64,000 nucleotides of DNA from Sphingomonas sp. AP4-R1 (lineage in GTDB: Bacteria > Pseudomonadota > Alphaproteobacteria > Sphingomonadales > Sphingomonadaceae), in assembly GCF_013113735.1 (NCBI RefSeq), contig NZ_CP053346.1, positions 1,564,001 to 1,628,000 of the forward strand, read 5' to 3'. The notes under the pieces were generated by a model. That model was not told the DNA's origin and searched no databases. It saw nothing but the letters and a program-made list of their open reading frames with translations. The first letter of the stretch is position 1. The number at the start of each line of letters is the position of its first letter. A program made the position numbers and the translations under genes. Positions 44,267 to 59,966 of this stretch are shown here, piece by piece.

Positions 44267-45973
44267 ATGATCGTCGGTATCGATTTGGGCACCACCAACA
44301 GCGCGGTTGCGGTGTGGCGCAACGGTGTCGCCGAGCTCATTCCAAATGCGCTGGGCGATGTCCTCACGCCCTCGGCGATCAGCGTGGCCGACGACGGATC
44401 CGTCCTGATAGGGAGCGCCGCGCGCGAGCGGCAATCGACGGAGCCCACTCGCACGGCCACCGCCTTCAAGCGTTACATGGGCACGGAACGTCGCATGATG
44501 CTCGGCGCGATACATGCCAATGCCGAGGATCTGTCCGCGCTTGTCCTGAGAAGCCTCAAGGCGGATGCAGAGGCGTTTCTGGGCGACACGGTAACCGGCG
44601 CCGTGATTACCGTCCCTGCTTATTTCAACGATCGGCAGCGCAAGGCGACCCAGCGCGCCGGTGACCTTGCGGGCCTCCAGGTCAAGCGCCTGCTCAACGA
44701 ACCCACTGCCGCTGCGCTCGCATTCGGATTGCAGACCCGTGAGGCGCGCGAGCCCTTCCTGGTGTTCGATCTGGGAGGCGGGACCTTCGATGTTTCCGTG
44801 GTCGAGATGTTCGACGGGATCGTCGAGGTTCGCGCTTCGGCCGGCGATAATCGACTGGGCGGTGAAGATTTCAATGCCAGTCTCGCAGCGATGATGCGCT
44901 CGCGGATCGATCCCGACGGCCGCTTCGCCCGGCATGATGCGCGGCTTGTGGAGGAGCGCCTGCTGGTCGCGGCGGAACGCGCCCGTCGCCTTCTCACCAG
45001 CCAGGATACGGCATTGTTTGCCGTCACGATCGGCGACGAGCGGTTCGAGGGCATCGTATCGACAGAGGAGTTTGAGGCGCAGGTCGCGCCCCTGCTCGCC
45101 CGGCTGCGCGATCCGGTCGTCCGTGCCTTGCGTGACGGAGGGTTGCGGGCGGAAGCGCTGAGCGAGATCGTCTTGGTCGGTGGCGCGACGCGCATGCCCG
45201 CCGTTCGTCGCGCGATCACCAAGATGTTCGGTCGTTTCCCGAGCCATGCGGTTCATCCCGATCATGCGGTGGCGCTTGGAGCGGCCATGCAGGCGGGCCT
45301 TCTCCAGCGCGATGCCGCGCTCGAAGAGATACGCCTGTCGGACGTGTGTCCGTTTACGCTGGGCATCAACGTCGCTGAACGGGATGCGCAAGGCAGGTTC
45401 CATAGCGGGCTTTATTCGCCCGTCATCGAGCGGAACACGCCGATCCCCGCGAGCCGCGAAAACCGCTATTCCACGATGGCGGACAATCAGCGCGAAATAG
45501 TCATGGACGTGTTCCAGGGCGAAGCTCGTTTGGTCGCCGACAATGTGAAGATCGGGACCGTGTCCGTTCCGGTGCCGCCGCGCCCGGCTGGCGGGGTCGA
45601 GGTGAAGGTTCGCTTCAGTTACGATACCAGCGGATTGCTGGAAGTGGACGTTTCCGTTCCGTTGACGGGTGTCACCCGAAATCTTGTGATCGTCGATGAG
45701 ATAGACAGCCCCGATGCCGCGACGATCGCGGCACGGCGCGAGAGCTTGGCAGCCCTCAAGGTTCATCCGCGGGATCAGGCGGAAAATGCGCTTCTGCTGG
45801 AGCGAGCGGCCCGATGTTATGAAGATCATATCGGAGATGCCCGCATACAGATCGGCCAATGGGTCACCGCGTTCGAGGCGGCACTGGATGATCAGAGGCC
45901 GCGCGCCATCAGCGAGGCACGCCAACAGCTTTCGGCGGAACTCGACCAACTCGACGGAGAACGAATATTGTGA
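44267..45973 (+). CDS. HscC-like Hsp70 family chaperone
   Basis: This 568-residue Hsp70 has an ATPase domain with phosphate loop VGIDLGTTNSAVAVW, VITVPAYFNDRQRKATQRAG, LLNEPTAAALAFG and FDLGGGTFDVSVVE (168-175), and the adenosine motif EIVLVGGATRMPAVR. A short substrate-binding domain follows. The length is like E. coli HscC (about 556) and shorter than DnaK (about 640), so the C-terminal lid is reduced. No dnaJ or grpE is nearby, so this is not the housekeeping chaperone. A GGTGGGGGG ribosome site precedes the ATG. The stop overlaps the GTG of a J-like gene, the same pairing seen for HscC-type proteins. Its codon use seems less GC-biased than the neighbours. Confidence 0.88.
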   Translation: MIVGIDLGTTNSAVAVWRNGVAELIPNALGDVLTPSAISVADDGSVLIGSAARERQSTEPTRTATAFKRYMGTERRMMLGAIHANAEDLSALVLRSLKADAEAFLGDTVTGAVITVPAYFNDRQRKATQRAGDLAGLQVKRLLNEPTAAALAFGLQTREAREPFLVFDLGGGTFDVSVVEMFDGIVEVRASAGDNRLGGEDFNASLAAMMRSRIDPDGRFARHDARLVEERLLVAAERARRLLTSQDTALFAVTIGDERFEGIVSTEEFEAQVAPLLARLRDPVVRALRDGGLRAEALSEIVLVGGATRMPAVRRAITKMFGRFPSHAVHPDHAVALGAAMQAGLLQRDAALEEIRLSDVCPFTLGINVAERDAQGRFHSGLYSPVIERNTPIPASRENRYSTMADNQREIVMDVFQGEARLVADNVKIGTVSVPVPPRPAGGVEVKVRFSYDTSGLLEVDVSVPLTGVTRNLVIVDEIDSPDAATIAARRESLAALKVHPRDQAENALLLERAARCYEDHIGDARIQIGQWVTAFEAALDDQRPRAISEARQQLSAELDQLDGERIL

Positions 45974-47736
45974 ACGCCGTCGAAGTCTGGCGGCTGCTCG
46001 GCATCGCTCCCACCGGCGACGTCGCTGCGATACGGAGCGCCTATGCGGCCGCACTGAAGGCCATCGATGTCGACGCGGATCCCGAGGCATTCATTGCCCT
46101 GCGCGCCGCTCGCGAACGCGCCCTGACCGGTGCTGCTCTGCCGGTTCTGTCCGACACCGATGACGACGACTACTACGATGATGACTACGACGATGATGAT
46201 CTCGGGCTTCATGATGATGAAGCGACGGATTTCATGCTCTTGCAGTCCGACCATAACGTCGTCGATCCCGCGATTCATCATCAGGCTTTGGTGGCATTGC
46301 TTCTGCCCGAAGGCGAGACGCGGTCCGAGGCCCTCGAGGCGCATGAGGTCGAGGCTCTTCTGTGGCATTTTGACGCGCTCGCGCGCGATCCGCAGCTCGA
46401 TCAGGTCGATATGTTCGCCCATGCCTCCGAATGGTTCGCTCGGCTGATCGCCGAAGCTTGCCCGCGCTCGGACCCGCTGATCGGGCCAGCCGCCACCGTG
46501 TTCGGCTGGGGGAGCGAGGCCAGTGTCAGCGATACGCCGGCCTTGGCGTTCGTCCTCGGTCGTCGGGCTGCCCTCGCATTTCGCGAGAGCGTCAGATCTC
46601 CCGATCACGCACTGCATGGCGCCTGGAAAGAGCTGATCAAACCGACCGACGAACACAGTCGACGGGGCTGGGTCAGGCGCCGCAACGTGCGCGACCTCCT
46701 CACTACGATCCGCACGCGTTATCCGACGTTGGAACGCGAGTTCGATTGGTATCGCGTCCAGCTCTGGGACAGACCGGTTGTTCGAGTGACGCTGCGACGT
46801 GGCATCATCGCGTTTTGGATCGTCTATGTTTTCGTGCGAGTCCTCATCTCGGTTTTTTCAACCGAAGAATCTCCCCCGTCAGTTCCGGTCCCGCCGCCAA
46901 ATATCGTCAATCCGCTGGTCCTGCCGGTTCCGGACATCGACGCTGCGCTGGAACAGATGATCGGCGACGATTTGCCCGTCTCCGAATTCCAGCAGCTTCA
47001 TCCAACTCTCTATGGGCTCCTGCTGACGAACTGGAATATCGCCCAAACCGAAGGAACAGTGCGCGACATCTTCATCGGTAATGCCAAACGGCAGATCCTC
47101 CAGATGGCGGAATTCACGCTTGCCGTGGCGCAGCCCGACATCCAGATGCGGGCCATCAGGCTGAAGCTGGCGCGTGTTCGGGCAGCTCGATCAAAAGGAT
47201 GGGATGCCTGCGCTGCCATCGCCGATCCATTCGGTGGGCTCGCTGGCGTGGATCCCGCGACCCGATTGCCGAGAGACGAGGCAAGGTTGGTCGTCGATAC
47301 GTTCAGATCAACACGGTCTCCAACGATGGAGGAGATGCGATCCGGATTGAGCGCCTCCTTCAACCTTCCCGGGCGGATGGCCGCGCAAGTCGCGAATCGG
47401 GTAAGCCTGCCCCTTACCGAGGTGATGGAAGTGCTGCAATATGGCGGTGGCGCGCGTCAGCGCTGCCTGGTGAGTATCGGGATGCTCGGAGCAGCGATCG
47501 AGGAACAGGGGACCACAGGTGAAATTCTTCGTAGCCATCTTCTCGGGGGAGGTCAGCCCCGCGGGACGGTGATTCTGCCGGCGCCCCCTATCGCTCCGGC
47601 GTCACAGGCTTCTCGCCATCGCCCACTACCGCGAAGGCGGACCAGTAGAAGGGGTGGGAGGTTTCGGCGGCGGCCATCAGCTTGGTCTGGCCGGCGCGAA
47701 TGGCGGCCGCGATCGGCGTGCCGGGTTTGGCCGTGA
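45970..47736 (+). CDS. membrane-anchored J-like protein, partner of the adjacent Hsp70
   Basis: This 588-residue protein begins with a J-like helix pair (VEVWRLLGIAPTGDVAAIRS then AYAAALK). In place of HPD it has the D-ADPEAF stretch with LRAARERAL, the form seen in the DjlB/DjlC-type group that pairs with HscC. An acidic run of Asp/Tyr (about 61-84) follows, then a soluble region, one membrane helix (IIAFWIVYVFVRVLISVF, about 279-296), a Pro-rich spacer and an unknown C-terminal domain. The final ~50 residues are Arg/Pro-rich and lie opposite the 3' end of the CHAT gene, so they may be over-read. The GTG start overlaps the Hsp70 stop. Function is inferred from pairing alone. Confidence 0.7.
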   Translation: MNAVEVWRLLGIAPTGDVAAIRSAYAAALKAIDVDADPEAFIALRAARERALTGAALPVLSDTDDDDYYDDDYDDDDLGLHDDEATDFMLLQSDHNVVDPAIHHQALVALLLPEGETRSEALEAHEVEALLWHFDALARDPQLDQVDMFAHASEWFARLIAEACPRSDPLIGPAATVFGWGSEASVSDTPALAFVLGRRAALAFRESVRSPDHALHGAWKELIKPTDEHSRRGWVRRRNVRDLLTTIRTRYPTLEREFDWYRVQLWDRPVVRVTLRRGIIAFWIVYVFVRVLISVFSTEESPPSVPVPPPNIVNPLVLPVPDIDAALEQMIGDDLPVSEFQQLHPTLYGLLLTNWNIAQTEGTVRDIFIGNAKRQILQMAEFTLAVAQPDIQMRAIRLKLARVRAARSKGWDACAAIADPFGGLAGVDPATRLPRDEARLVVDTFRSTRSPTMEEMRSGLSASFNLPGRMAAQVANRVSLPLTEVMEVLQYGGGARQRCLVSIGMLGAAIEEQGTTGEILRSHLLGGGQPRGTVILPAPPIAPASQASRHRPLPRRRTSRRGGRFRRRPSAWSGRREWRPRSACRVWP

Positions 47737-50653
47737 ACAGGGCGGTGATCAGGCTGGTCGTCGCGCCATAATCGTCCGGGATCGGCCAGTGGCTGGCCAC
47801 CACCGATCGCGCGCCCGCGCCGACGAAGGCGCGCACCAGGCCGTCCAGCGCGAAATTGCCGCCGGTGGCGATGCCCGCCTCGCGCGTGGCCTCCTCGGTC
47901 GCCATGCCCGCCGTGTCGCAGGCGGAGAGGACGACGAGGTCGGCATCCAGCTTCAGATCGAAGATCTCGCGGAAGCTGAGCAGCCCGTCCGACCCCTTGT
48001 CGCCGAACGAGGTGAGCAGAGCGGGCCGCGCCGGGCAGCGCGGATCGGGCGCGGTGACGAGGCCGTGCGTGGCGAAGTGGATCACGCGATAGTCGGCCAG
48101 ATCGGTCCGTGCCTCCAGCGCCGTGTCGCTGAAGGCGGCGCCGGTGATGACCATGCCGCTGCCCGCGCCCAGCGCGCGATCGGCGATGCCCAGTTCGGAG
48201 GCCGAGATCGGATTGTCCCACGCTCTGGCCGGCCACTGGCAGTCCAGCCCCGTCTGCATCGCCACGCGCGTATAAGCCTGCTGCGGCGAGAGCGGCGCAT
48301 TGTGGCCCAGCCCCAGATAGGTGCGCTTCCCCCGCGCCGGCGCTGCCGCGCGCACGTCGACGAAGGAGCGGGGCGAGACGGCGGTGGTGATGTCGCGATC
48401 GCGGCCCAGCCAGGCGATGCCGCGATAATCGAACGGATCGCCGTCGGGCCTCGCCGCCTGCTTCTCATAGGCGACCACGCCCGTCGCCTCGGTCACGAGC
48501 AGATTGGGCGGTAGCTGCAGCATCGGCCCGTCCGGCTCGAAGATCAGGCTGGTGATGTCGGCCATGTCCGCGCCGAACGGATCGAACAATTCGGTATAGA
48601 GCTTGCGCGCCAGCACCACGTTGAACGGATAGGTGACGGTCTTGCCATTTTCGATCGTGACGACGCTGGCGCGCAGGCTGGCCACCTCGTCGCCCAGCGC
48701 GTCGGCGGTGATCGGCAGCTTCGCCGCGCGCACCGCACCGGGCGTCACCATCAGCGCATAGACATCCTGATCGACGATGCGGAGCTGATAATAGGCCTCG
48801 CGCGCGCGCAGCGCCTTCTGGAGATCGGCCACCGTCATCTCCGCCGGCGCCAGCACGCGATAGCGCGGATAGACGGCGAGGCGCGATTGCAGCGCGGTCT
48901 GCTCGCCTTCCAGACGGGTGAGGTCGGCGCGGGCGGTTTCCACCTGCGCCTCGCTCGCCTTGCCGTCCGCCGCCTGCGCGGTGACCGTGGTGACCTCGCC
49001 CGCCGCGCGCGCGACATCGCGCGAGAGCGAGACCGACTGGCGGAACAAGGCCGCCGCCTCGTCGTCCCCGCCCGAAAGCTCGCGCGCCAGCACGGCCTGC
49101 GTCTGCGCGACGCCGGGGCGCACCATCACCTGATTGGCCGCGAACAACGCCTCGGCCGCCTTGGGATCGCTGTTGGCGCGTGGCGCGAGCAGGGCGAAAT
49201 AGGGGGCGAGCAGGCTGCGCATCGCGACGGCCGAGCCCGGCAGCTTCAGGCTGTCGCTGACGATCTGGGCGTAGAGCGGAAGGGCGCGATCGGGATTGCC
49301 GCGCCGCGCGAGGAAAGCGGCGAGGCGCGCCCGCGCCGCCAGCTCGGCCGAGGATTGCGGATAATCGAGCGCGAGGATCTGCGCGGATTCGGCGAAGTGG
49401 CTTTCGGCGAGCCCATAATCCTGCCGCGCCTCCGCGATCAGAGCGAGTTCGGCCAGCCCCTCGGAGCGCAGGAACGCGACCGAAGCGACGCGCCCCTCGC
49501 GCACCGACAGGAAGGTGCGGTTGCCCTGCTCGATCGACTGGATCGCCTCGGGATAGCGGGCGAGCGTACGATAGGCGACACCGCGCAACTGCTGCGCCTG
49601 CCCGTCGAGGATCGTCGCGCGTTCGGCCGGACGCAACTTGCCGTCCAGCCCCGCCAGCCGATCGAGCGCGGCATTCTGGCGGTTGATCTGTTCGGCCAGG
49701 GTCGGGCTGATCACGCCGCCTGCGATCGCGCCGTCATTGCCCTGCCCTTCGATCGGCGGGACGGGCACGTCGAGCGCGGTGATCGCCTCGTTCGGCTCCA
49801 GCTGGTTCAGCGCGTGCATCGCGCGATAATTGCGGATCAGGCGGCTGGCGACCGGATCGGTGGTGCTGCCGATCGCGGCGGCCTGCGCGAAGAAGCCGTC
49901 GGCGGCGGCGAAATTGCCGAGGTTTGATTGCTGCAGGCCCTGGTTGGCGAGATATTCCGCCTTGCGCGCGGCATCGTCCCCGCCACCGTCGCGCTCCGTG
50001 AGCGTCTGGAAGAATTCGGCCGCCTCGGCGAAGCTGCCCGCATTGTTGCGCAGATAGGCCTGGCTCAGTGCCAGCTCGGGATCCAGCACGCCCGCCTGCA
50101 CGCGGGCGAAGGCGGCGGGGTTTCCGGACTCGGTCGTCGCCACCTCGACCGTGCCGTCGACCGGCCTGTTGGTGACGAGCGTGGCGAGGGCGAGGCGCAG
50201 CGCGCTGTCATAGCCGCCCAGCCCCTCGGCGATATACCAGGTGCGGCCGCGCTGGATCGCATAGGCGCGGTAGGCGAGCTTGTCGGTCGGGCGTTCGCAG
50301 ACGGTGAGGCGCGCGCCGGCGAGCCCGTCTATCTTCGCATCCTCGGCGGTGGCGCAGGTGACGCCCGAATGGCGTGCGGCGAGCAAGGCGGGCAGGGGAT
50401 CGGCACCGGCATTGCGGAGCGCGAACAGGGCCCCGACCTGCGCGGTCGCGTCGCGGCAGACGAGGCCATAGCCGCGATCGAACATGTCCTTCAGCGCGGG
50501 ATCGAGCGGCTGCGCCTGCGCGGTGCAGAGCACGCCCTTGCTGCCGATGCGGAAACTGTCCTGCACGGCGATGCCGCCGGTGCGCGGGGTGGCGGCGGTG
50601 ACGGGGGAGAGCGCGAGCAGGGAGAGAGCCGCGCAGGCGAGCGAGCGGATCAT
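47588..50653 (-). CDS. exported CHAT-domain (caspase-like) peptidase with TPR-like region
   Basis: This 1,021-residue protein has a Sec signal peptide (MIRSLACAALSLLALSPVTA). A ~160-residue N-terminal domain has Cys-containing motifs (GVLCTAQAQ, GLVCRDATA). A long helical TPR-like region follows (about 190-560; EAAEFFQTLTERDG, GNFAAADGFFAQAAAIG), then a coiled-coil-like stretch and a C-terminal CHAT domain. The catalytic dyad is intact: His863 in RVIHFATHGLV and Cys912 in DLVVLSACDTAG. CHAT peptidases are caspase relatives (clan CD). The start overlaps the TpsA stop by four bases, so it is the third gene of a two-partner-secretion operon. Periplasmic rather than cytosolic location is unusual for well-known CHAT proteases. 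Targets are unknown; processing of TpsA is an obvious idea. Confidence 0.88.
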   Translation of the reverse strand: MIRSLACAALSLLALSPVTAATPRTGGIAVQDSFRIGSKGVLCTAQAQPLDPALKDMFDRGYGLVCRDATAQVGALFALRNAGADPLPALLAARHSGVTCATAEDAKIDGLAGARLTVCERPTDKLAYRAYAIQRGRTWYIAEGLGGYDSALRLALATLVTNRPVDGTVEVATTESGNPAAFARVQAGVLDPELALSQAYLRNNAGSFAEAAEFFQTLTERDGGGDDAARKAEYLANQGLQQSNLGNFAAADGFFAQAAAIGSTTDPVASRLIRNYRAMHALNQLEPNEAITALDVPVPPIEGQGNDGAIAGGVISPTLAEQINRQNAALDRLAGLDGKLRPAERATILDGQAQQLRGVAYRTLARYPEAIQSIEQGNRTFLSVREGRVASVAFLRSEGLAELALIAEARQDYGLAESHFAESAQILALDYPQSSAELAARARLAAFLARRGNPDRALPLYAQIVSDSLKLPGSAVAMRSLLAPYFALLAPRANSDPKAAEALFAANQVMVRPGVAQTQAVLARELSGGDDEAAALFRQSVSLSRDVARAAGEVTTVTAQAADGKASEAQVETARADLTRLEGEQTALQSRLAVYPRYRVLAPAEMTVADLQKALRAREAYYQLRIVDQDVYALMVTPGAVRAAKLPITADALGDEVASLRASVVTIENGKTVTYPFNVVLARKLYTELFDPFGADMADITSLIFEPDGPMLQLPPNLLVTEATGVVAYEKQAARPDGDPFDYRGIAWLGRDRDITTAVSPRSFVDVRAAAPARGKRTYLGLGHNAPLSPQQAYTRVAMQTGLDCQWPARAWDNPISASELGIADRALGAGSGMVITGAAFSDTALEARTDLADYRVIHFATHGLVTAPDPRCPARPALLTSFGDKGSDGLLSFREIFDLKLDADLVVLSACDTAGMATEEATREAGIATGGNFALDGLVRAFVGAGARSVVASHWPIPDDYGATTSLITALFTAKPGTPIAAAIRAGQTKLMAAAETSHPFYWSAFAVVGDGEKPVTPER

Positions 50654-53600
50654 CGCGCTTTCTCCCGCTCGGCTTTCCTGCGGGCATCCTCGTCGATCTG
50701 CTTCTTGCCGGTGGCGGGGCCGGAGCGCGCCGTCTTCTGCAGCGTCGTCATGCTTTCCCACAGGATCGGATTGCCCGCGCTCGCGACCGGATCGGTGACG
50801 ATGGCGGGCGTGTTGAGCAGGCTGAGATCGATCGTCACCGGCTCGTCGAACGAGGGCAGGAACACCGTGTCGCGCGAGAAGGCGATCAGCGTACCGTCGA
50901 TCACGTCGCGCACGATCGCGGCGACCGGCGGCGGCGTGATGACGGTCGTGGGCGGCGGGGTGACGAGACAGCCGCCGATGATCGGGCAACCATTCACCAC
51001 GGACTGGGTGGAAAAGCCGGCCGTGCCGCTGGCCTGCCCCGAGGCGAAGCTGACGGCGGGCAATGTATCATTGTTGGTGGCGAAGCCGGCCGCATTCTGG
51101 ATGCGGCCATAGACCAATACGTTGAAGCCGCCGGTCGCCTGCGTGCCGCCGCGGTTCGTGATCGCGAGGCCGCCCGTGCCCGCCGTGAAGCCCGCCGCCA
51201 GCGCGGCGCTGCCCGTATTCTGGATGATGACGCCGTCGGTCGCGGCCAGCTCGATCCGGCCCGCCTGGATCACGCCTTCGGCGCGGGGCTGGCCGGCGGC
51301 CGCCCCGATGGCGGCGGTGGTGGCGGCGGACAGCGGGCCGGCGAAGCTGGTCGTGCCGTTCAGCAATTGCGTGGTGCCCGCCTCGATCCGGTTCGCGCCG
51401 ATCGCGAGGCGCCCGCCCAGCGTGGTACCGGCGAACACGCCGATCGATCCGGTATCGGAGAAGAGGCGCACCGTGCCCGCATTCAGGATCAGGCTCTGGC
51501 CGGCGCCCGCATCGTTGAAGCGCAGATTGCCGGTGATGCTGATCGTGCCGGATGAGGTGAGCGTCAGCGCGCCGCTCGCGCCGGTGATGTTGGCGGAGGC
51601 GCCCGCGCCGGTGCCGGAGACAGTGGCGTCCCGCACCGTCAGAGCGGGGCCGCCGTTGAAGCTGACATTGCTCGCCCGCACGCGCGACAGTTCGCCTGCG
51701 TCCAGCGTATAGCCGTTGCCGTCGCCGGTGCCGCCGAGGAAGGCCGGGCCGGTGCCCGTGACGGTGAAGGCGACGGTCTGCGTCGCGGCATTGCCGATCG
51801 ATCCGTTCGCGCCCAGCCTGAGATTGCCGCTGGAGAAAGCGAGGTCGGGCCCGATCGTGGCGGCGGCGAGGCTGATGTCCGCCGCCGTGAGCCGCGCGAA
51901 CTGGGCCACGTCGATCGCGCCGGCGAAGCTGGCAGTGCCGCTGGTGGTGGTGCGCAGGATCGCGGCGCTCACCGGGCCGCCGACCGAGACGGGACCGGCG
52001 ATGGCCGTGCCGGTGGCAGTGATGTCGATCGCGCCGGCATTGGCCGCATCGGCGAGCAGGACATAGCCGCCATTGGTGCGCCGCGCGGAGATGGCGCCCG
52101 TCGTGATGCCAGTCTTCGCGAGCAACGCCGCATTGCCGCCCGCCTGCACATTGCCGGTGGTGAGCTGCGCGGTGCGGCTGACGGCGAGGATGTCGCCGCC
52201 CGAGGTCAGCGCGCCGGTCGTCACCGCGCCGTCCGCCTGCAGGGTCAGGGCGTTGGGGGTGGTGACGTCGCCCGTTGCGATCGTGGTGCCGCCGTCGATC
52301 AGGACGCTGTTCGCCGTGATCGCGCCGCTCGTCACGCCGCCCGTCGCCGCCACGCGCAGCGCGCCGGTGCGGACCGCGCCGGCGATCGTGGCGGTTCCGG
52401 CGAGACGCTGCGGGATCGCGGTGGCGAGCGTCGTATAGTCGAACGCGGGATTGATCGATCCGGACGGACCGACCAGCCCGGCGACAGGTTGCGACTGGGT
52501 GGCGGACAGGTTCGAGAGGAACGCCACGTCGCCGGCATTGGTGCCGGTGGTGATCGCCCCGGTGGATATGCTCTGCGGCGCCAGCAGCGCCACGCTGCGG
52601 GCGGCCTGCAACGCGCCCGTTGCGATGCTTCCCGCGCGCGTGACCAGTGCGATCGATCCGGCGCCGCTCGTCACCGCGCCGGTGCTGATGCCGTTGGCGG
52701 CGGCGAAGGCAACGCCGGTGCCGCCGCTGGCCGCGAGGGTGGCGATCCGCCCGCCCGCCGTGACCGAATAGGCCCCGCCGGCGCCGAGCGCGCCGCCGAG
52801 GAGATAATCACCGCCGACGATCACGGTGAGATCGTTGGTCACGCCGATCGCGCCGGGCACATTGGAGGGCGTGGAACCGTCACCGAAGGTCAGCGTGCCC
52901 GTCGCCTGCAGCAGGCCCGTGCCGATCCGGATCCCGCCACCCGCGCCGGTCGTCAGCGCATAATCACCGATCGCCTGTACGGTGAGGGAGGAGGCTGTGA
53001 GTATCCCGTCCGTGGCACCGATGCGGGAGACCGTGGCGGACGGGGTCGTGCCGGCATTGCTGACCAGCAGGTCCCCCACGGTCGCATCGCCGGACGCGAC
53101 CGTGAAGCTGCTCGTGCCCGCCACGGTCGCGCCGCCGTTGGAGATGGCGGACGTATCGATGCTGAACGAGCCCGTCTGCGTGAGGGCTCCGCGCGATCCG
53201 CCATTGGCGCGCGCCGCGACGCCGACAGTGGCCACGCCGCCGGTGCCGTCTCCCGCCGCGCCGGTCCCGCCCGCATTGATCAGGCCCCCGCTGGCGCCCG
53301 CACCGCTGGCGAAGATGGTGACGTTGGCGGCGGTCACGGGGGCGCCGGTGGAGGCGAACGTGAGCGAACCACCCCGGCCCGCGCCGCCTGATCCCGCCAC
53401 AACATTGCCGCCGCCGCCGCTCCCGCCGCTCCCGCTCACGTCGAAGATGGCGTTGCCGAAGGTGGCGGAGCCGGTGGTGGGCGCGGTGCCGCCGGGATCG
53501 GTCGTGCCGATGAAGGCCGTGCCGCCCGTTCCGGTGCCGCCATTGCCGCCCGCTCCGGCCGCGCCGCTCGGCAGCGGATCGCCGCCGAACGCACCGCTGC

Positions 53601-56600
53601 CGCCCACGCCCGCGACGGTGACCGAGACAAGGCTGCCCGCATTGGCGACGATCGTGCCGAACGCCGCGTCGGCCGAAATCTCCGCCGTGCCGCCCACACC
53701 GTTGCCGCCCGCAGCGCCCTGCACGCCGGGATCGGGCTGGAGGCCGTTGCCGCCGCGCCCGCCGGCGTCGGCCGTCACATTGCCCACGAAGATGCGCCCG
53801 GCACTGGTGGAGACGGCGTCGGCATTGGCGCCGGTGTTCGATCGTCCGATCAGCACCTGTCCGCCCGTTCCGGTGCCGCCCGCGCCAGCAGCGGACGCAC
53901 CGCCGAGGCCGGTGGCCTGCACCTGGCCGAAATCGGTGCCGACCGACAGATCGACCGTGCCGTTCATGCCGACGATCCACGCCTGCCCGCCCGTGCCCGC
54001 GCCGCCACTGGCGGTCAGGCTGCCGCCGCCGCTGCCATTGGCGCTGACGAGGAAGCCGGTCGATCCGGTGATCGTGCCGCCATTGGCGATCAGATACGCG
54101 CCGCCCAGCGTGGTGCCGATCGTCCGTCCGCCGAAGCCCGCCCCGCCGACCGAGCCGGTGCCGTCGGCGGCGAGATTGATCGTGCTGGTGCGGACCTGGC
54201 CGCCCTGCGTCGCCAGCAGGCGGACGAACCCGCCCGTGCCGGTGCCGCCGATGCCGGTGAGCGGGCTGCCGCCCCGGCCGCTGGCGGAGGCGGCGATACC
54301 GCCCGTCACGTCCAGCAGGCCGGTGACGGCGATGTCGATGCTGCCGCCGAAGCCGTCGCCGCCGGTGGCGTTGCTCAGCCCGAACACATTGCCGCCGATG
54401 CCGGCCGACGAGAGGCTGAGCCCGCTGCTCACCCGGATCGTGCCCGAGGCATCGACGAGGATCTGGCCGCCCGTGCCCGATCCCGCCTGTGCGGCGAGGC
54501 TCGATCGGCCGCTGATCGCATCGACCGCGCCGATGAAGCCGTTGGTGACGGTGAGCGTGCGTCCCGCCGCCGCGCGGAGCGTGATCGCGCCGCCGATGCT
54601 GGCGCCGGGGCCTGCGGGCGGATTGGAATTGAAGACGCTGGCGGCCTGACCGATCGCATAGACCGTCGCCGATCCGATCGTGATGTTGGCGCCGGTCGCC
54701 AGGATCTGCGCGGTGCCGCCCTGCATCGTCGTGGTCGCGGGATCGCTGCCGCCATGGCCGCCCGCGCTGGCGCCGACGATCAGATCGCCCGTGGTGATCG
54801 CGCCGGTGCCGGCGGACACTGTGAAATTGCCGCCGGTCGCCGCGCCGCCGATCCGCCCCTGATTCTGGAGCTGGCTGGCGTTGGCGTCGAGGCTCACCTG
54901 CAGGCCGGCCGTCGTGATCGATCCGCCGCCACCACCGACATCGGGATCGGGCTCGGTGCGGATGGCGACATTGCCGCCCACGGCGCTGTCGCCATCGCCG
55001 CTGCTGACCCCTCCGGTCGCGGTGGCGCTGATCCGGCTCAGGTCGCCCAGCGTGATCGATCCCACATTGGCGATGAGGGCGATCGTGCCGCCGGTGGCGA
55101 CGGTGCCGACACCCGTGCTGCTGCCGCCGCTGCGCGCACTGGCGCTGAGGACGGACGTCCCCGCCACGCCGAGATTGCCCGTCGAAGCCGTCAGCGTGAC
55201 CGAGCCCGCATTCGCCTGCCCGCCATTGGTGGCGGTGCCGTTCGCGAAGCCGGCATTGGCGTCGGCCGTCGCCGTCAGCGTGCCGGCGAGCTGCAGGCTG
55301 CTCCCGGCCTCGATGCGGATCGCGCTGCTCTGGGCATCGCCGCCATTGCCATTCTGCCCGTTGCCGCCCGTGGCGAGCGAGGAGAGGGTGACGGCACCGC
55401 CGATCGTGGCGCCCTGCGTGGTGCCGGTTTCGACCAGCGAGACGACGCTCGCTGCGGCCGCCCCGCCGGTGAGGCCATTGCCGCCGGTGGCGTTGGCGGA
55501 CATGTCGACCGTGCCCGAAATCGCGGTGGGAGCGGCCGCGCCGGATGAGGGCGCCAGCCTGACCTCGGCCAGCCCGCTTTGCGCGTCTCCGCCGGTGCCG
55601 GCGGGCGATGCGCCGCCGACAGCGTTGGAGCGGGCGATGATCGATCCGACCTGCACCGGGCCGCTGCTCTGCAGAAGCAGCGACGCGTTGACCGCGCGGC
55701 CAAAGCCCCCGGTTGCGCCCGCGCCCAGCCCTGCGCCGCCGGTGCCGTTCGCGAACGCGCCGAGCCGGGCGGCGGATACCGCCGCATCGCCGAAGACGCT
55801 GATGATCGCGCTGCCGATGCCAGATATGCCACCCCCCGCAAGGCCCGCTCCGCCCGATCCGGTGCCCGCCGTTACCGATCCGCCGATCGCCTGATTGCCG
55901 ACGACGACGCCGGGCACCAGACTGGCATTGCCGGTCGATCGCGTCGCCGTCAGCGATCCGCCGCTCACGCGCAGCACGGCCTGCCCGCTCAGCGCGTCGC
56001 CGGCATTGCCGGTGCCGCCCGTCTTGTCGCCGCCCATCGCGTCGGCGCTGAGCGACAGCAGCGAGAAATCGAGGATGCCGGTCGTATCGACGGTGATCCT
56101 GCCGCCCGTGCCGGTGCCGCCCGTGCCGCCGCCCGCCGATGTGCCGCCATAGCCGAAGGTGCTGAGGAAGCCGAAGTCGGAGGTCAGCTGCGCGCCCGAT
56201 CCGATGTTGACCGTAACGGTGCCGCCGGTGGCGTTGCCACCCGCCGAGGCGGCTCCCGATCCGCCATTGCCGCCGCGCGCGGTCGCGGTGATGCTGAGCC
56301 CACCCGGCGCGGTGAAACTGGTGACCGGGCCGCTGGTCGCCAGCATGGTAAGGCTCGCCGTGCCTGCCGTGGCATCGTACCCCGATCCCGTCGCGACGAG
56401 CGCATTGCTGCCCTGCGCGTCGGCGGAGATCTGCGCCTGCGTCGTCGCGGAGACGATGCCGCCCGGCCGCACCGTCAGGCTCGCCGTGCCGCCTGTTCCC
56501 GCTCCGCCGCTCGCCGAACCTGCGGCGGTAACGAAAAGACTTTGGCTGAGCTGCAGCTGTCCGTTCGCGATATCCGCCGTGGCCTGCCCGCCCGTGCCGG

Positions 56601-58218
56601 TCGCACCGGTGCCGACGCCCGTGGCGTCCACCGTCAGATTCTGCGCCGTGACTGATCCGCCGTTGATCAGAAGCTGGGACGTGCCGCCCTGGCTGGCCTG
56701 GCCGGACGTGCCGCTGCCGGGCGTCGTCACGTTGATATATTGCTGGGCGGAGATCGTGCCGCCGCCAGTGGCGCTGATGACGGCGCTGCCGCCGGTGCTG
56801 AAATTGAACGCCAGCGGATCATAGCCGATCCCCGTCGGCGCACCGGCCTTGATCGTGGCGTAGGAGCCGAGCGTGATCGCGCCGCCCGCGCCCGCCGAAA
56901 GCAGGGAGGAGCCGGGCACGTTGGGCCCGAACGAATCCATCGTCAGCGCGCCGGCGATCGCGATCGTGCCGTTGGTGGCGATGAGCGTCGTGCTCGTGCC
57001 GCCGAGCAGCGAGAGGTCGCTCGCGAAGGCGATCGGGCTGGTCAGGCCGGAGAAGCTCGAGAAATTGGCGACGTCGATCGCGTTGCTGGCGCGGGCCGCC
57101 ACGGGGGCGTTGAAGCGCCCGCCCGTGGCCGGCGCGGGCGTGATCGCGCTGCCCTCGATGCTGATATTGCCGCCCGCGATGACGGGTATGCCCTGTATCT
57201 GCCCCTGCGTTGCGCCCGACGGATCGATCTGGAGATTGCCACCGGACACCAGATAGATGCCGCCGTTCGAGATCGTCACGCCATTGGCCACGTCGAAGCC
57301 GAAATAGCCGTCCGGCGCCACGATCATCGAGACCGCGTTGTTCTTCGGCACGGCCACGGCATAAATGCCGCGCTGGTTGGTGGCGGCGCCGGTCTTGTCG
57401 AGTTTGATCGTGCCGCGCAGCTCGACCGGAAAGCCGTCCGCGTCGGCGCCGGTGGTGACGCTGATGTCGAACAGGCCCTGATTGAACGTGAGGGTCGCAT
57501 TCTCGGCCGCGACGAAGGCGGCCGCGCCGTTCACGGTGATCGTGCCGCGCGTGAACACCTTGGGTGCTACGAGCGCGACGTAGCTGTTCTCGTTGATCGC
57601 GTTGATCGTCGCCTGCGAGAGGACGCTGACCACGCCGTTCGGATTGGTGGAGGTCAGGTTGAAGGTGTTCGATCCGAGGCTGCCGGTGGGATCGGCGGTG
57701 GTGAGCAGCAGGCTGCCCACGTTGAAGGCAGATCCGTCGCCGAGGATGATGCCGCCGGGGCTGTAGAACCATACCGAGCCGCCGGTCGTCATGTTGCCGG
57801 CGCCATCGACCAGCTGGCTCGTGACGCGGCCGTTGAACGCGACCGGCCGGGTGGGATCGGCGGGGACGATCCGGTTGAGAATGGTGAAGTTCGGCCCGCC
57901 GGGGGCGCTCCGATAAAAGACGTCGGTATTGGCGTTCTGGAAATTGATCGGGTTGTTGACGCCGCCGCCGGTCGCCGCGTCGCTCGGCGTGAAGTTCAGC
58001 ACGGCCGTGGGCGTGCTGACCGTGTAGATGTCCGTATTGGGCGTATTATAGTCGGCCGTCACGCCGCCGCTGATCAAGGTAGGCGCGGGCGACACATACG
58101 AATTGGGCGAGGTCGCCTGCCCATAAACCGGCCCGGCCAGCGCGGTGGCCAGCGCCAGCGTGGAGGCCGCGAGGGGGAGGCCGCGGGGCGAGCGGCGCCG
58201 GATCGGGGCAGCGGACAT
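50650..58218 (-). CDS. giant TpsA passenger (filamentous-haemagglutinin-like adhesin)
   Basis: This 2,522-residue protein has an N-terminal signal (RRRSPRGLPLAASTLALATA). A TPS/haemagglutinin-activity domain (about residues 60-290) follows with the family stretches TILNRIVPADPTRPVAFNGR, GSVWFYSPGGIILGDGSAFN and VGSLLLTT. The rest is beta-helix-like, rich in Gly, Thr, Ser and Ala, with many GGTGTGG-type turns roughly between residues 550 and 1750 and a different repeat style after that. Only two cysteines are seen, at about 2411 and 2417 (NGCPIIGGCL), followed by a Pro-rich linker and a charged tail ending KAEREKAR. It is secreted by the upstream TpsB; the stop overlaps the CHAT gene start. 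Contact-dependent-inhibition toxin motifs such as VENN are absent. The ATG overlaps the tpsB stop by one base. Confidence 0.9.
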   Translation of the reverse strand: MSAAPIRRRSPRGLPLAASTLALATALAGPVYGQATSPNSYVSPAPTLISGGVTADYNTPNTDIYTVSTPTAVLNFTPSDAATGGGVNNPINFQNANTDVFYRSAPGGPNFTILNRIVPADPTRPVAFNGRVTSQLVDGAGNMTTGGSVWFYSPGGIILGDGSAFNVGSLLLTTADPTGSLGSNTFNLTSTNPNGVVSVLSQATINAINENSYVALVAPKVFTRGTITVNGAAAFVAAENATLTFNQGLFDISVTTGADADGFPVELRGTIKLDKTGAATNQRGIYAVAVPKNNAVSMIVAPDGYFGFDVANGVTISNGGIYLVSGGNLQIDPSGATQGQIQGIPVIAGGNISIEGSAITPAPATGGRFNAPVAARASNAIDVANFSSFSGLTSPIAFASDLSLLGGTSTTLIATNGTIAIAGALTMDSFGPNVPGSSLLSAGAGGAITLGSYATIKAGAPTGIGYDPLAFNFSTGGSAVISATGGGTISAQQYINVTTPGSGTSGQASQGGTSQLLINGGSVTAQNLTVDATGVGTGATGTGGQATADIANGQLQLSQSLFVTAAGSASGGAGTGGTASLTVRPGGIVSATTQAQISADAQGSNALVATGSGYDATAGTASLTMLATSGPVTSFTAPGGLSITATARGGNGGSGAASAGGNATGGTVTVNIGSGAQLTSDFGFLSTFGYGGTSAGGGTGGTGTGGRITVDTTGILDFSLLSLSADAMGGDKTGGTGNAGDALSGQAVLRVSGGSLTATRSTGNASLVPGVVVGNQAIGGSVTAGTGSGGAGLAGGGISGIGSAIISVFGDAAVSAARLGAFANGTGGAGLGAGATGGFGRAVNASLLLQSSGPVQVGSIIARSNAVGGASPAGTGGDAQSGLAEVRLAPSSGAAAPTAISGTVDMSANATGGNGLTGGAAAASVVSLVETGTTQGATIGGAVTLSSLATGGNGQNGNGGDAQSSAIRIEAGSSLQLAGTLTATADANAGFANGTATNGGQANAGSVTLTASTGNLGVAGTSVLSASARSGGSSTGVGTVATGGTIALIANVGSITLGDLSRISATATGGVSSGDGDSAVGGNVAIRTEPDPDVGGGGGSITTAGLQVSLDANASQLQNQGRIGGAATGGNFTVSAGTGAITTGDLIVGASAGGHGGSDPATTTMQGGTAQILATGANITIGSATVYAIGQAASVFNSNPPAGPGASIGGAITLRAAAGRTLTVTNGFIGAVDAISGRSSLAAQAGSGTGGQILVDASGTIRVSSGLSLSSAGIGGNVFGLSNATGGDGFGGSIDIAVTGLLDVTGGIAASASGRGGSPLTGIGGTGTGGFVRLLATQGGQVRTSTINLAADGTGSVGGAGFGGRTIGTTLGGAYLIANGGTITGSTGFLVSANGSGGGSLTASGGAGTGGQAWIVGMNGTVDLSVGTDFGQVQATGLGGASAAGAGGTGTGGQVLIGRSNTGANADAVSTSAGRIFVGNVTADAGGRGGNGLQPDPGVQGAAGGNGVGGTAEISADAAFGTIVANAGSLVSVTVAGVGGSGAFGGDPLPSGAAGAGGNGGTGTGGTAFIGTTDPGGTAPTTGSATFGNAIFDVSGSGGSGGGGNVVAGSGGAGRGGSLTFASTGAPVTAANVTIFASGAGASGGLINAGGTGAAGDGTGGVATVGVAARANGGSRGALTQTGSFSIDTSAISNGGATVAGTSSFTVASGDATVGDLLVSNAGTTPSATVSRIGATDGILTASSLTVQAIGDYALTTGAGGGIRIGTGLLQATGTLTFGDGSTPSNVPGAIGVTNDLTVIVGGDYLLGGALGAGGAYSVTAGGRIATLAASGGTGVAFAAANGISTGAVTSGAGSIALVTRAGSIATGALQAARSVALLAPQSISTGAITTGTNAGDVAFLSNLSATQSQPVAGLVGPSGSINPAFDYTTLATAIPQRLAGTATIAGAVRTGALRVAATGGVTSGAITANSVLIDGGTTIATGDVTTPNALTLQADGAVTTGALTSGGDILAVSRTAQLTTGNVQAGGNAALLAKTGITTGAISARRTNGGYVLLADAANAGAIDITATGTAIAGPVSVGGPVSAAILRTTTSGTASFAGAIDVAQFARLTAADISLAAATIGPDLAFSSGNLRLGANGSIGNAATQTVAFTVTGTGPAFLGGTGDGNGYTLDAGELSRVRASNVSFNGGPALTVRDATVSGTGAGASANITGASGALTLTSSGTISITGNLRFNDAGAGQSLILNAGTVRLFSDTGSIGVFAGTTLGGRLAIGANRIEAGTTQLLNGTTSFAGPLSAATTAAIGAAAGQPRAEGVIQAGRIELAATDGVIIQNTGSAALAAGFTAGTGGLAITNRGGTQATGGFNVLVYGRIQNAAGFATNNDTLPAVSFASGQASGTAGFSTQSVVNGCPIIGGCLVTPPPTTVITPPPVAAIVRDVIDGTLIAFSRDTVFLPSFDEPVTIDLSLLNTPAIVTDPVASAGNPILWESMTTLQKTARSGPATGKKQIDEDARRKAEREKAR

Positions 58219-59966
58219 CAGCGGTCCTTCCACGGAAAGAGCCGGGTGGTGAGCGACATCAGGATGCGCGTGTCGCCGCGCTCGGTCTGCAGCCCGGCGC
58301 GCTTGGTGGGCACCGCCACCGTAAGGTCGAGCCGCACGCGGCTGGCGAAGCTGGTCCGCACGCCCGCGCCCAGCGACGTCAGGCTCTGCGGATCGCCCGC
58401 CACGTGCCGGTTCCACACCCACGCCGAATCCACGAACACGAACGGCTGCAGCACCAGATTGAGATTGGTGAAGGGCACGATCCGGTTCAGGCGCAGCTCG
58501 CCCGTGAAGCCCGCGCCGCTGTCGCCGATGATCGTGCCGGGATCATAGCCGCGCCCGATCGTATAGGTGCCGGCCGAATATTCCTCGAAGCTCAGCAGCG
58601 GATTGAACGCAACTTGCACGCGCGGCGCGATCGAGGCGGTGATCTGCGGCGTCAGCGCCGCTTCGGCATAGCCCGAGGCGCGCAGCAATGTGGCTTCCGC
58701 ATCGCCATCCGATCGGCTGGGGCCGACGCGGCCGGGCACGGAGGTGCCGTCGGTCGCGTCGAAAATGCCGAGGCCGTGGCGCAGCTCCAGCGAGTAAGAG
58801 GCACGCCAGCGGGTGAGCTTCCCCTCGCGCACGTCGGCCGTGTCGCCGTCGATGCGCGCATAGGCCACGCGCAGATGATCGCGCGTCAGCAACGTGCCCG
58901 CGAAGCGCACGTCCTGATCGACATAGTCGAAGCCGATGGAGCCGCGCAGGTTCGCGCGCTGGCTGCGCAGGAAGGGATAGCTGGCCTCGCCCGTGGCGAA
59001 GAGCGTCTCGGCGCGCAGATTGCCGTTCAGGCCGACATCCGGCTTCGTCCACGCATAGGTGAAGCGGCCCGCGAAGGTGAGGCCTTCCGGCCCGACGCGG
59101 AAATCGTGCGCGAGCTGCAGGATGTGCTGCTCGTCATAATCGGAGGTGGAATAGAAGCCGATCGTCGTGCGGTCGCCGAGGCCGGTCAGGCCATAGAGGC
59201 GGCCGGTGAGCTGGCCGCCGAAACGCCCGGTGCTCTTGGCGGCGAAATTCTGGATGTTGAGATCCGCCTCGAACGGCGTGCGCGTGACGATCACGTCGCC
59301 CAGCAATTCGCCGGGCTTCGCGCCGGTCGGGCGCAGCACGAGGCGCACGTCATAGCCCGGCATGTCGCGCGCGAGCAGCAGGTAACGCTCGGCGGTGAAG
59401 CGGTTGAAGACGGGATCGTCGGTCAGCTTGTTGAGATAGGAGGCGATCAGCCGCTCGTTGCGGCCGGCATCGCCGCGCACGCGCACCGCCGTGAGCTTCG
59501 CGTACAGCACCTCGAACGTGACGCTGCCATTCTCGATCTTCTGCGTCGGCACCTGCACGGCGGCGAGATAGCCCTGCCGGCGCAGATAGGTGCCGACCGC
59601 GTCGCGTATCTCGCAGATCGTGCTGACGGGCCGATCGGCGCCCAGATAGCTTTGATAGACGGGCAGCAGATCGGCCGGATCGACCGGCCCCAGATTATGG
59701 AAGGCCGCGCCCGTGATCGTGACGCGGATATCCTTGTAGGCGGGATCGTCGAGCGGGCAGGGCGCGCGCTCGATATCGCCTTCCACCTTCAGCTTCGGCG
59801 CGCTCTGGACGGGCGCGGTCGTGCCGGGGCGGGTGACCTCCTCGCGCGTCGGCAGGCCGCCATTGGCCAGCGCGGAGGGCGGCGGCGCCACGCGCTGCGC
59901 CCCTGCCATCTGCGCCGTGCCGGCCCCCGCCAGCAGCGCGCACATCATGCCCCCCCGCCATCTCAT
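58218..59966 (-). CDS. TpsB outer-membrane transporter (ShlB/FhaC/HecB family)
   Basis: This 582-residue Omp85-type transporter exports the adjacent TpsA across the outer membrane. After a signal peptide and a Pro-rich linker come two POTRA-like domains (about 75-235; KDIRVTITGAAFHNLG, TEVQV-type VTFEVLYAKLTAVRVRGDAG). A 16-stranded barrel follows, with the conserved GRGYDPGTIIGDSG (the RGY/F motif of loop 6) and a C-terminal strand RILMSLTTRLFPWKDR. ATG 59966 gives a basic N-terminus; ATGs at 59948/59945 are closer to a GGGGGGG tract and are possible alternatives. It is the first gene of the tpsB-tpsA-CHAT run. Confidence 0.93.
   Translation of the reverse strand: MRWRGGMMCALLAGAGTAQMAGAQRVAPPPSALANGGLPTREEVTRPGTTAPVQSAPKLKVEGDIERAPCPLDDPAYKDIRVTITGAAFHNLGPVDPADLLPVYQSYLGADRPVSTICEIRDAVGTYLRRQGYLAAVQVPTQKIENGSVTFEVLYAKLTAVRVRGDAGRNERLIASYLNKLTDDPVFNRFTAERYLLLARDMPGYDVRLVLRPTGAKPGELLGDVIVTRTPFEADLNIQNFAAKSTGRFGGQLTGRLYGLTGLGDRTTIGFYSTSDYDEQHILQLAHDFRVGPEGLTFAGRFTYAWTKPDVGLNGNLRAETLFATGEASYPFLRSQRANLRGSIGFDYVDQDVRFAGTLLTRDHLRVAYARIDGDTADVREGKLTRWRASYSLELRHGLGIFDATDGTSVPGRVGPSRSDGDAEATLLRASGYAEAALTPQITASIAPRVQVAFNPLLSFEEYSAGTYTIGRGYDPGTIIGDSGAGFTGELRLNRIVPFTNLNLVLQPFVFVDSAWVWNRHVAGDPQSLTSLGAGVRTSFASRVRLDLTVAVPTKRAGLQTERGDTRILMSLTTRLFPWKDR

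Follow-up and report, generated by a model that had tools for sequence, protein, structure and literature searches.

In two-partner secretion (TPS), the transporter TpsB exports the exoprotein TpsA N-terminus first. The tail of CdrA from Pseudomonas aeruginosa is described as periplasmic, as presumably held by a cysteine hook and as cut by the periplasmic protease LapG for release (PMC5422565, PMC11898600), and FhaB of Bordetella is described as a TpsA processed by proteases (SphB1, DegP, CtpA), with a regulated degradation of its C-terminal prodomain (PMC8263021). Some TpsAs are also reported to be anchored by a C-terminal disulfide domain that stays in the periplasm (PMC8151025). Here, we describe a locus of Sphingomonas sp. 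AP4-R1 in which a tpsB-tpsA pair is joined by a third gene, encoding a TPR-CHAT protein with an N-terminus resembling a signal peptide. It lies in a stretch of 64,000 nucleotides (contig NZ_CP053346.1, positions 1,564,001 to 1,628,000), hereafter the window. This CHAT subfamily is tied to TPS, the linked TpsAs carry a short C-terminal tag, and we propose that the CHAT enzyme may recognise and cut the tail of its own TpsA.

The three genes, tpsB, tpsA and the TPR-CHAT gene, form an overlapping run on the minus strand of the window, with the following features:

58218–59966, minus strand: tpsB, outer-membrane transporter, 582 residues (Pfam: POTRA_2 at 84–154, ShlB at 229–537)
50650–58218, minus strand: tpsA, exoprotein, 2522 residues (ATG at 58218, stop at 50650)
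57385–57801, minus strand: TPS-domain similarity within TpsA (PF05860, 31.6 bits, E-value 2.8e-7, below the cut-off of 33.5)
50968–50988, minus strand: C-x5-C pair (NGCPIIGGC) where the predicted beta-helix of TpsA ends (sequence and AlphaFold)
50653–50967, minus strand: C-terminal tail of TpsA past the cysteine pair, closing in a predicted charged helix (AlphaFold confidence score pLDDT about 40–60)
50758–50793, minus strand: C-terminal tag DPVASAGNPILW (motif; the 17-column profile match spans 50749–50799)
47588–50653, minus strand: predicted exported TPR-CHAT protein, 1021 residues (PF12770, 172.8 bits)
48065–48067, minus strand: codon of His863, catalytic dyad, within HFATHG (motif and alignment)
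47918–47920, minus strand: codon of Cys912, catalytic dyad, within SACDTA (motif and alignment)

The overlaps given in the original prediction, made from the DNA letters before this analysis, are exact: one base between tpsB and tpsA (TGATG) and four bases between tpsA and the CHAT gene (ATGA). On the transporter side the locus fits type Vb: TpsB combines a ShlB-type POTRA domain with a barrel (PF03865, 56.3 bits for a cut-off of 22.7; PF08479, 26.5 bits for a cut-off of 24) and tpsB directly adjoins tpsA. The TPS domain of TpsA is recognisable, at scores below the curated cut-offs (for TIGR01901, 20.3 bits vs 29.1); the general Pfam scan returned no row for TpsA, and its relatives are annotated as filamentous hemagglutinin.

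By its domain and its intact dyad, the third protein is a CHAT peptidase with predicted proteolytic activity. Its N-terminus (MIRSLACAALSLLALSPVTAA) resembles a signal peptide (about residues 1–21) and precedes a beta domain (about 33–170), a helical TPR part (about 179–592) and the CHAT domain (681–1012). Both the signal peptide, assessed by a simple rule, and the His863/Cys912 dyad had been predicted and were found again. The two catalytic residues are kept in all 76 readable rows of an alignment of 77, one row being masked there. Four cysteines of the beta domain (Cys43, 66, 100 and 119), together with Cys805 and Cys873, are conserved in 76 or 77 of the 77 rows (a gap or a masked letter accounts for each exception), and these six extra cysteines fit an oxidising compartment. 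The signal-peptide rule was passed by 114 of 120 listed database relatives of the CHAT protein, itself included. This rule, uncalibrated for false positives, was likewise passed by 12 of 18 CHATs unlinked to TPS. Exported-looking CHATs are therefore not rare in this group, which corrects the earlier remark that CHAT proteases are rarely described in the periplasm. The sphingomonad CHATs found outside TPS loci are represented in our set by L056–L075.

With the CHAT model as query, Foldseek gave its best E-value (2.4e-9) for DdvA, a transmembrane anti-sigma factor aligned over residues 185–1011 (TPR and CHAT parts), and the fold matches included the proteases Csx29, separase and gingipain RgpB. 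A sequence search against solved structures returned TPR matches and otherwise nothing meaningful; in Pfam, only CHAT and weak TPR models matched, and PF06035 (C93/LapG) did not. The protein was unmatched in PADLOC, whose coverage of Csx29 was unchecked, and a Pfam scan of the neighbouring proteins turned up no Cas domain, no search aimed at Cas having been made. As a separate observation, the rank of DdvA suggests that TPR-CHAT-like parts may work in membrane signalling elsewhere.

The association of this CHAT subfamily with TPS was evident from a profile search of 397 Sphingomonadales genomes, in which at most two CHAT and three TpsB candidates were scored per genome and the best 150 of each were kept. 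A listed tpsB was present within 25 kb of 137 of the best 150 listed CHATs, on the same strand in all 137. The layout of these pairs is tpsB-tpsA-CHAT in 78, CHAT 2–6 kb before tpsB in 40 and CHAT directly before tpsB in 19. The other 13 of the best 150 had no listed tpsB, some lying at contig ends and some being paired by other searches. Rare adjacency of the CHAT gene, which the original prediction had named as evidence against itself, is strongly contradicted by this survey. A wider scan of contigs, of which the best 80 of 483 confirmed stretches were examined, extended the TPS-linked kind to further cases in Caulobacterales and, among the same 80, revealed looser CHAT relatives with a cyclase and tpsB in beta-proteobacteria. 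Three of the latter loci (L158, L159, L171) hold a CHAT gene, a small protein, a CHASE2-cyclase-like gene and tpsB, and no TpsA was seen next to them. The plasmid CHATs of Agrobacterium and Pseudosulfitobacter had no annotated TPS genes nearby.

Pfam models applied to 147 genomes gave a lower figure, with a ShlB match within 30 kb for 43 of 85 CHAT matches; the strands agreed in 42 of these 43, the sole exception being locus C of this genome (see below). At least one CHAT unpaired in Pfam (G126) was later found to be paired. When 20 of the 42 unpaired CHATs were fetched, phmmer recognised 18, at 36–92 bits against the CHATs of this genome, whereas the TPS-linked CHATs of the fetched set mostly scored 500–1100 bits, with the distant L042 and L043 as exceptions. 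Three paired loci (L046, L047, L055) were unmatched by any query protein and were left out of the tag work; their CHAT matches lie near ShlB matches without a counterpart among the CHAT and TpsB proteins of this genome, and they may represent a second, unrelated CHAT-TPS association. Finally, the distance matrices of CHAT and TpsB over 77 loci correlate with r = 0.92, part of which is contributed by common descent; the best of 2000 permutations reached 0.22.

Inspection of the linked TpsAs revealed a common organisation of their ends: a C-x(4-8)-C pair, then a probably disordered tail carrying a short tag. Its forms in relatives include DDPVTGAGNDDLW, DDPVSGSGNPALM, DPVASGGDVALY and DPLVGTNNEGLF, and in Caulobacterales-type loci it reads DPVVTGTGSEEIW, seven residues short of the C-terminus. 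In an AlphaFold model covering the C-terminal 350 residues of the window TpsA, the cysteine pair (fragment residues 239 and 245) terminates the confident beta-helix, and the tag (304–315) has a pLDDT of about 40; this tail model was built with 18 aligned sequences, and its low confidence suggests disorder without proving it. In the six closest TpsAs, the tag ranks with the best-conserved segments of the tail. These TpsAs also share a separate conserved stretch after the tag (PATGKKQ-like; window 50653–50757), with a charged helix predicted at the end.

A complete downstream open reading frame of at least 700 residues was present for 63 of 88 linked and 17 of 32 unlinked TpsBs (one of the latter, L076, is probably in the wrong frame). 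Leaving out L131 (wrong frame) and L158 (not a TpsA) and retaining L042 as a miss gave 61 linked TpsAs. Within the last 60 residues, a loose tag pattern matched 59 of these 61 vs 0 of 17 unlinked TpsAs, against a rate of 4.8% in internal windows; the two misses were L042 and locus B, where 216 residues separate the tag from the C-terminus. The seed pattern matched 52/61 and 0/17 over the same length, and a first, narrower pattern 50/63 and 0/17. Further from the end, matches appeared among the unlinked TpsAs as well: 1/17 in the last 120 residues with either pattern and, in the last 250, 2/17 with the seed and 4/17 with the loose pattern. The C-x(4-8)-C pair stands 33–213 residues upstream of the tag in 57 of 60 TpsAs. 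The tag was also found in two named plasmid loci examined once the pattern was fixed (Sphingobium sp. TomTYG46 and Sphingomonas parapaucimobilis), and in the CHAT-bearing L192 and L193, examined after it was first noticed. This substrate-side signature of linked TpsAs (cysteine pair, tail, tag) is new here. The partnership of CHAT and TpsA is well supported, and the earlier suggestion that TpsA is the candidate partner gains independent support from the CHAT-associated tag.

The genome of AP4-R1 as a whole contains three CHAT, three TPS-domain and four ShlB matches, and each of the three CHATs adjoins a tpsBA pair, one to one. The window locus is arranged tpsB-tpsA-CHAT; locus B (4299165–4315284) consists of CHAT, a CHASE2-adenylate cyclase, a small protein, tpsB and tpsA; in locus C (1636750–1653299) CHAT is tail-to-tail with tpsA, with 12 bases between them. 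Three layouts of the same association speak against a simple copying of one operon. We searched the whole genome with a 17-column tag profile that included the window tag and left out those of loci B and C. The top three matches were the three TpsA ends (E-values 5.1e-6, 2.1e-4 and 0.066, the third not significant on its own); the fourth, at 0.54, fell in a 24-residue frame and nothing else scored above it. These data bear on the idea of CHAT as a general protease for envelope quality control, cotranscribed by chance with the TPS genes. CHATs that look exported by the simple rule are indeed common away from TPS loci; however, the linkage, the matching distances, the one-to-one counts and the confinement of the tag to TpsAs in this genome make this idea highly improbable, and the one-to-one pairing speaks against the original suggestion of an action on damaged envelope proteins. 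In locus B and many relatives, the CHASE2-adenylate cyclase and a 261-residue protein lie between CHAT and tpsB (L013:10308-13098), a possible signalling arm. The 261-residue protein has no Pfam match above cut-off, and a "FecR-like" label for it was dropped, as Pfam shows no FecR match.

Relatives without CHAT allow a natural experiment. A tag serving only TpsB would be expected with TpsBs of the same clade even where CHAT is missing. Eleven genomes were chosen by eye as having a TpsB match at least as good as 1e-120 while lacking a CHAT-family match at 1e-30. Of these, nine had no match to the Pfam CHAT model, G174 had a partial distant match and G243 a fragment. The tag was missing from all nine testable CHAT-less TpsAs (L176–L182, L186, L187; seven genomes), which are part of the 17 unlinked TpsAs and come from genomes without this CHAT family. 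L183 (TpsA not beside TpsB), L184 and L185 (TpsA cut off) were left out of this judgement. In a TpsB tree built with a quick method, the CHAT-less loci nest at several places inside the 92-row CHAT clade: L180 and L187 are, with support 87, next to L141 and L149, both tagged; six stand beside the locus-C group and L177 within the group of L137–L139. Each of these points may mark a loss or a gain of CHAT. The TpsAs of L180 and L187 retain the cysteine pair, followed by a different end. Two decayed relatives were also noted, namely L183, a TpsB without adjacent TpsA or CHAT in the same-genus genome G217, and L188 of G243, where a CHAT fragment follows a shortened TpsB.

A search for LapG-type C93 peptidases (PF06035) found no match in this genome and matches in 5 of the 20 genomes searched. 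In two of these five, G256 and G328, a C93 gene lies divergently beside a CHAT-less tpsBA pair (L190:2473-3462, minus strand; G256 C2:1244207-1244491), its domain being confirmed in G328, and the neighbouring TpsAs, tagless over their last 120 residues, have one cysteine at most. This suggests that another cysteine protease can occupy the place of CHAT beside tpsBA.

We propose a three-component TPS system, made of TpsB, TpsA and an exported TPR-CHAT protein. The C-x(4-8)-C pair at the end of the beta-helix would likely close as a disulfide and hold the end of TpsA at the TpsB pore, so that the flexible tail would stay in the periplasm. There, TPR-CHAT would recognise the tag and cut TpsA at the tag or nearby, and the cut would trim or free the surface exoprotein, or switch its state. 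Gene linkage, the export signal by the simple rule, the intact dyad, the tag and its co-occurrence with CHAT are observed; the periplasmic tail, the disulfide, recognition, cleavage and outcome are deduced from them. On balance, we lean towards this tag-guided cutting by CHAT of the tail of its own TpsA, maturing or releasing the exoprotein, as the somewhat more probable account.

Several points weigh against this reading. Since the tag lies past the first cysteine pair and is followed by two or more cysteines in only 15 of 60 TpsAs, cutting at the tag might by itself leave most TpsAs anchored by the only nearby pair. The tag is degenerate: a strict leave-out score matrix recovers 35/61 linked and 0/17 unlinked TpsAs at 12 bits or more, shuffled sequences reaching 13.1. 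Moreover, the patterns were defined after the tails had been seen and the rows are related, so that the counts are not independent; a distant CHAT-TpsB lineage (L042) has no tag, and the CHAT-less L179 TpsA shows a partial resemblance to it (AENEVWK). The tag may serve only for docking. Its co-occurrence with CHAT does not by itself require cutting, and CHAT could act as a docking factor or chaperone that finishes export without proteolysis of TpsA; the invariant catalytic His and Cys are hard to explain for a scaffold, and we hold this to be quite improbable. PorU, a caspase-fold peptidase, joins type IX cargo to a surface acceptor, and CHAT could likewise be sortase-like, cleaving at the tag and joining TpsA to such an acceptor. 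The window locus is however made of three overlapping genes with no obvious acceptor, and the cysteine pair would already provide anchoring; a sortase-like role seems rather unlikely.

The tag-guided cut could be coupled to a signal by the CHASE2-adenylate cyclase and the small exported protein that adjoin CHAT in many sister loci. The same neighbours, together with the long helical TPR part and the first rank of DdvA, would also suit a CHAT that is mainly a sensor, its TPR part binding the TpsA tail as a report of export and its protease acting on another periplasmic protein or feeding the cyclase. However, the tag is also present on TpsAs where the cyclase is unseen, as in 18 of 20 fetched tpsB-tpsA-CHAT loci (about 1–2 kb covered beyond CHAT) and in the window, where no cyclase adjoins CHAT; a mainly sensory role is in our view unlikely.

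Around the operon, an open reading frame of 588 residues without Pfam match (45970–47736, plus strand) is convergent to the CHAT gene and is immediately preceded by an Hsp70-family gene (44267–45973). Promoter and terminator scans gave signals not above those of shuffled sequence.

These results define a large CHAT family with a candidate substrate site delineated by sequence, and would provide a testable substrate for exported CHAT proteases. If correct, the proposal would link a caspase-fold enzyme to the maturation or release of surface proteins, and the three enzyme-tag pairs of one genome offer a comparison of specificity. We give an even chance to the broader view of a widespread alphaproteobacterial system in which a CHAT enzyme, a relative of caspases and separase and possibly a sortase, reads the C-terminal tag of its own TpsA, with one enzyme per exoprotein and several pairs per cell. 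A literature search found no paper joining a CHAT domain with two-partner secretion, hemagglutinin or ShlB, or two-partner secretion with caspase-like proteins, and no such system appeared in the titles and opening abstract lines of the listed papers on CHAT domains, on CHAT proteases and on TPS in Sphingomonas; most subscription papers lay outside it, which makes this weak evidence.

The CdrA-CdrB/LapG system resembles the one described here in having a TpsA with a C-terminal cysteine pair, which we found in the linked TpsAs, and a periplasmic protease proposed to cut its tail. LapG is a C93 cysteine peptidase, whereas the protease here is a CHAT protein, adjoining tpsA and accompanied by a cognate tag, in a genome without C93 match; a link to a second messenger is suggested here only by the CHASE2-cyclase neighbouring CHAT in other loci. 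With FhaB, the likeness consists of a TpsA and proteases, processing taking place in FhaB itself and being proposed here. Csx29, the TPR-CHAT protein of Craspase (type III-E CRISPR), partners Cas7-11, while the present protein carries an export signal, conserved cysteines and, on its N-terminal side, an additional beta domain. DdvA shares the fold of the TPR and CHAT parts and differs in being, by its title, a membrane anti-sigma factor. PorU and sortases share only the idea of an enzyme reading a C-terminal signal of exported cargo, by another secretion route. Lastly, HMW1ABC of Haemophilus influenzae is described as a three-gene TPS operon, as in the window, its third gene encoding a cytoplasmic glycosyltransferase where the Sphingomonas locus encodes a predicted exported protease.

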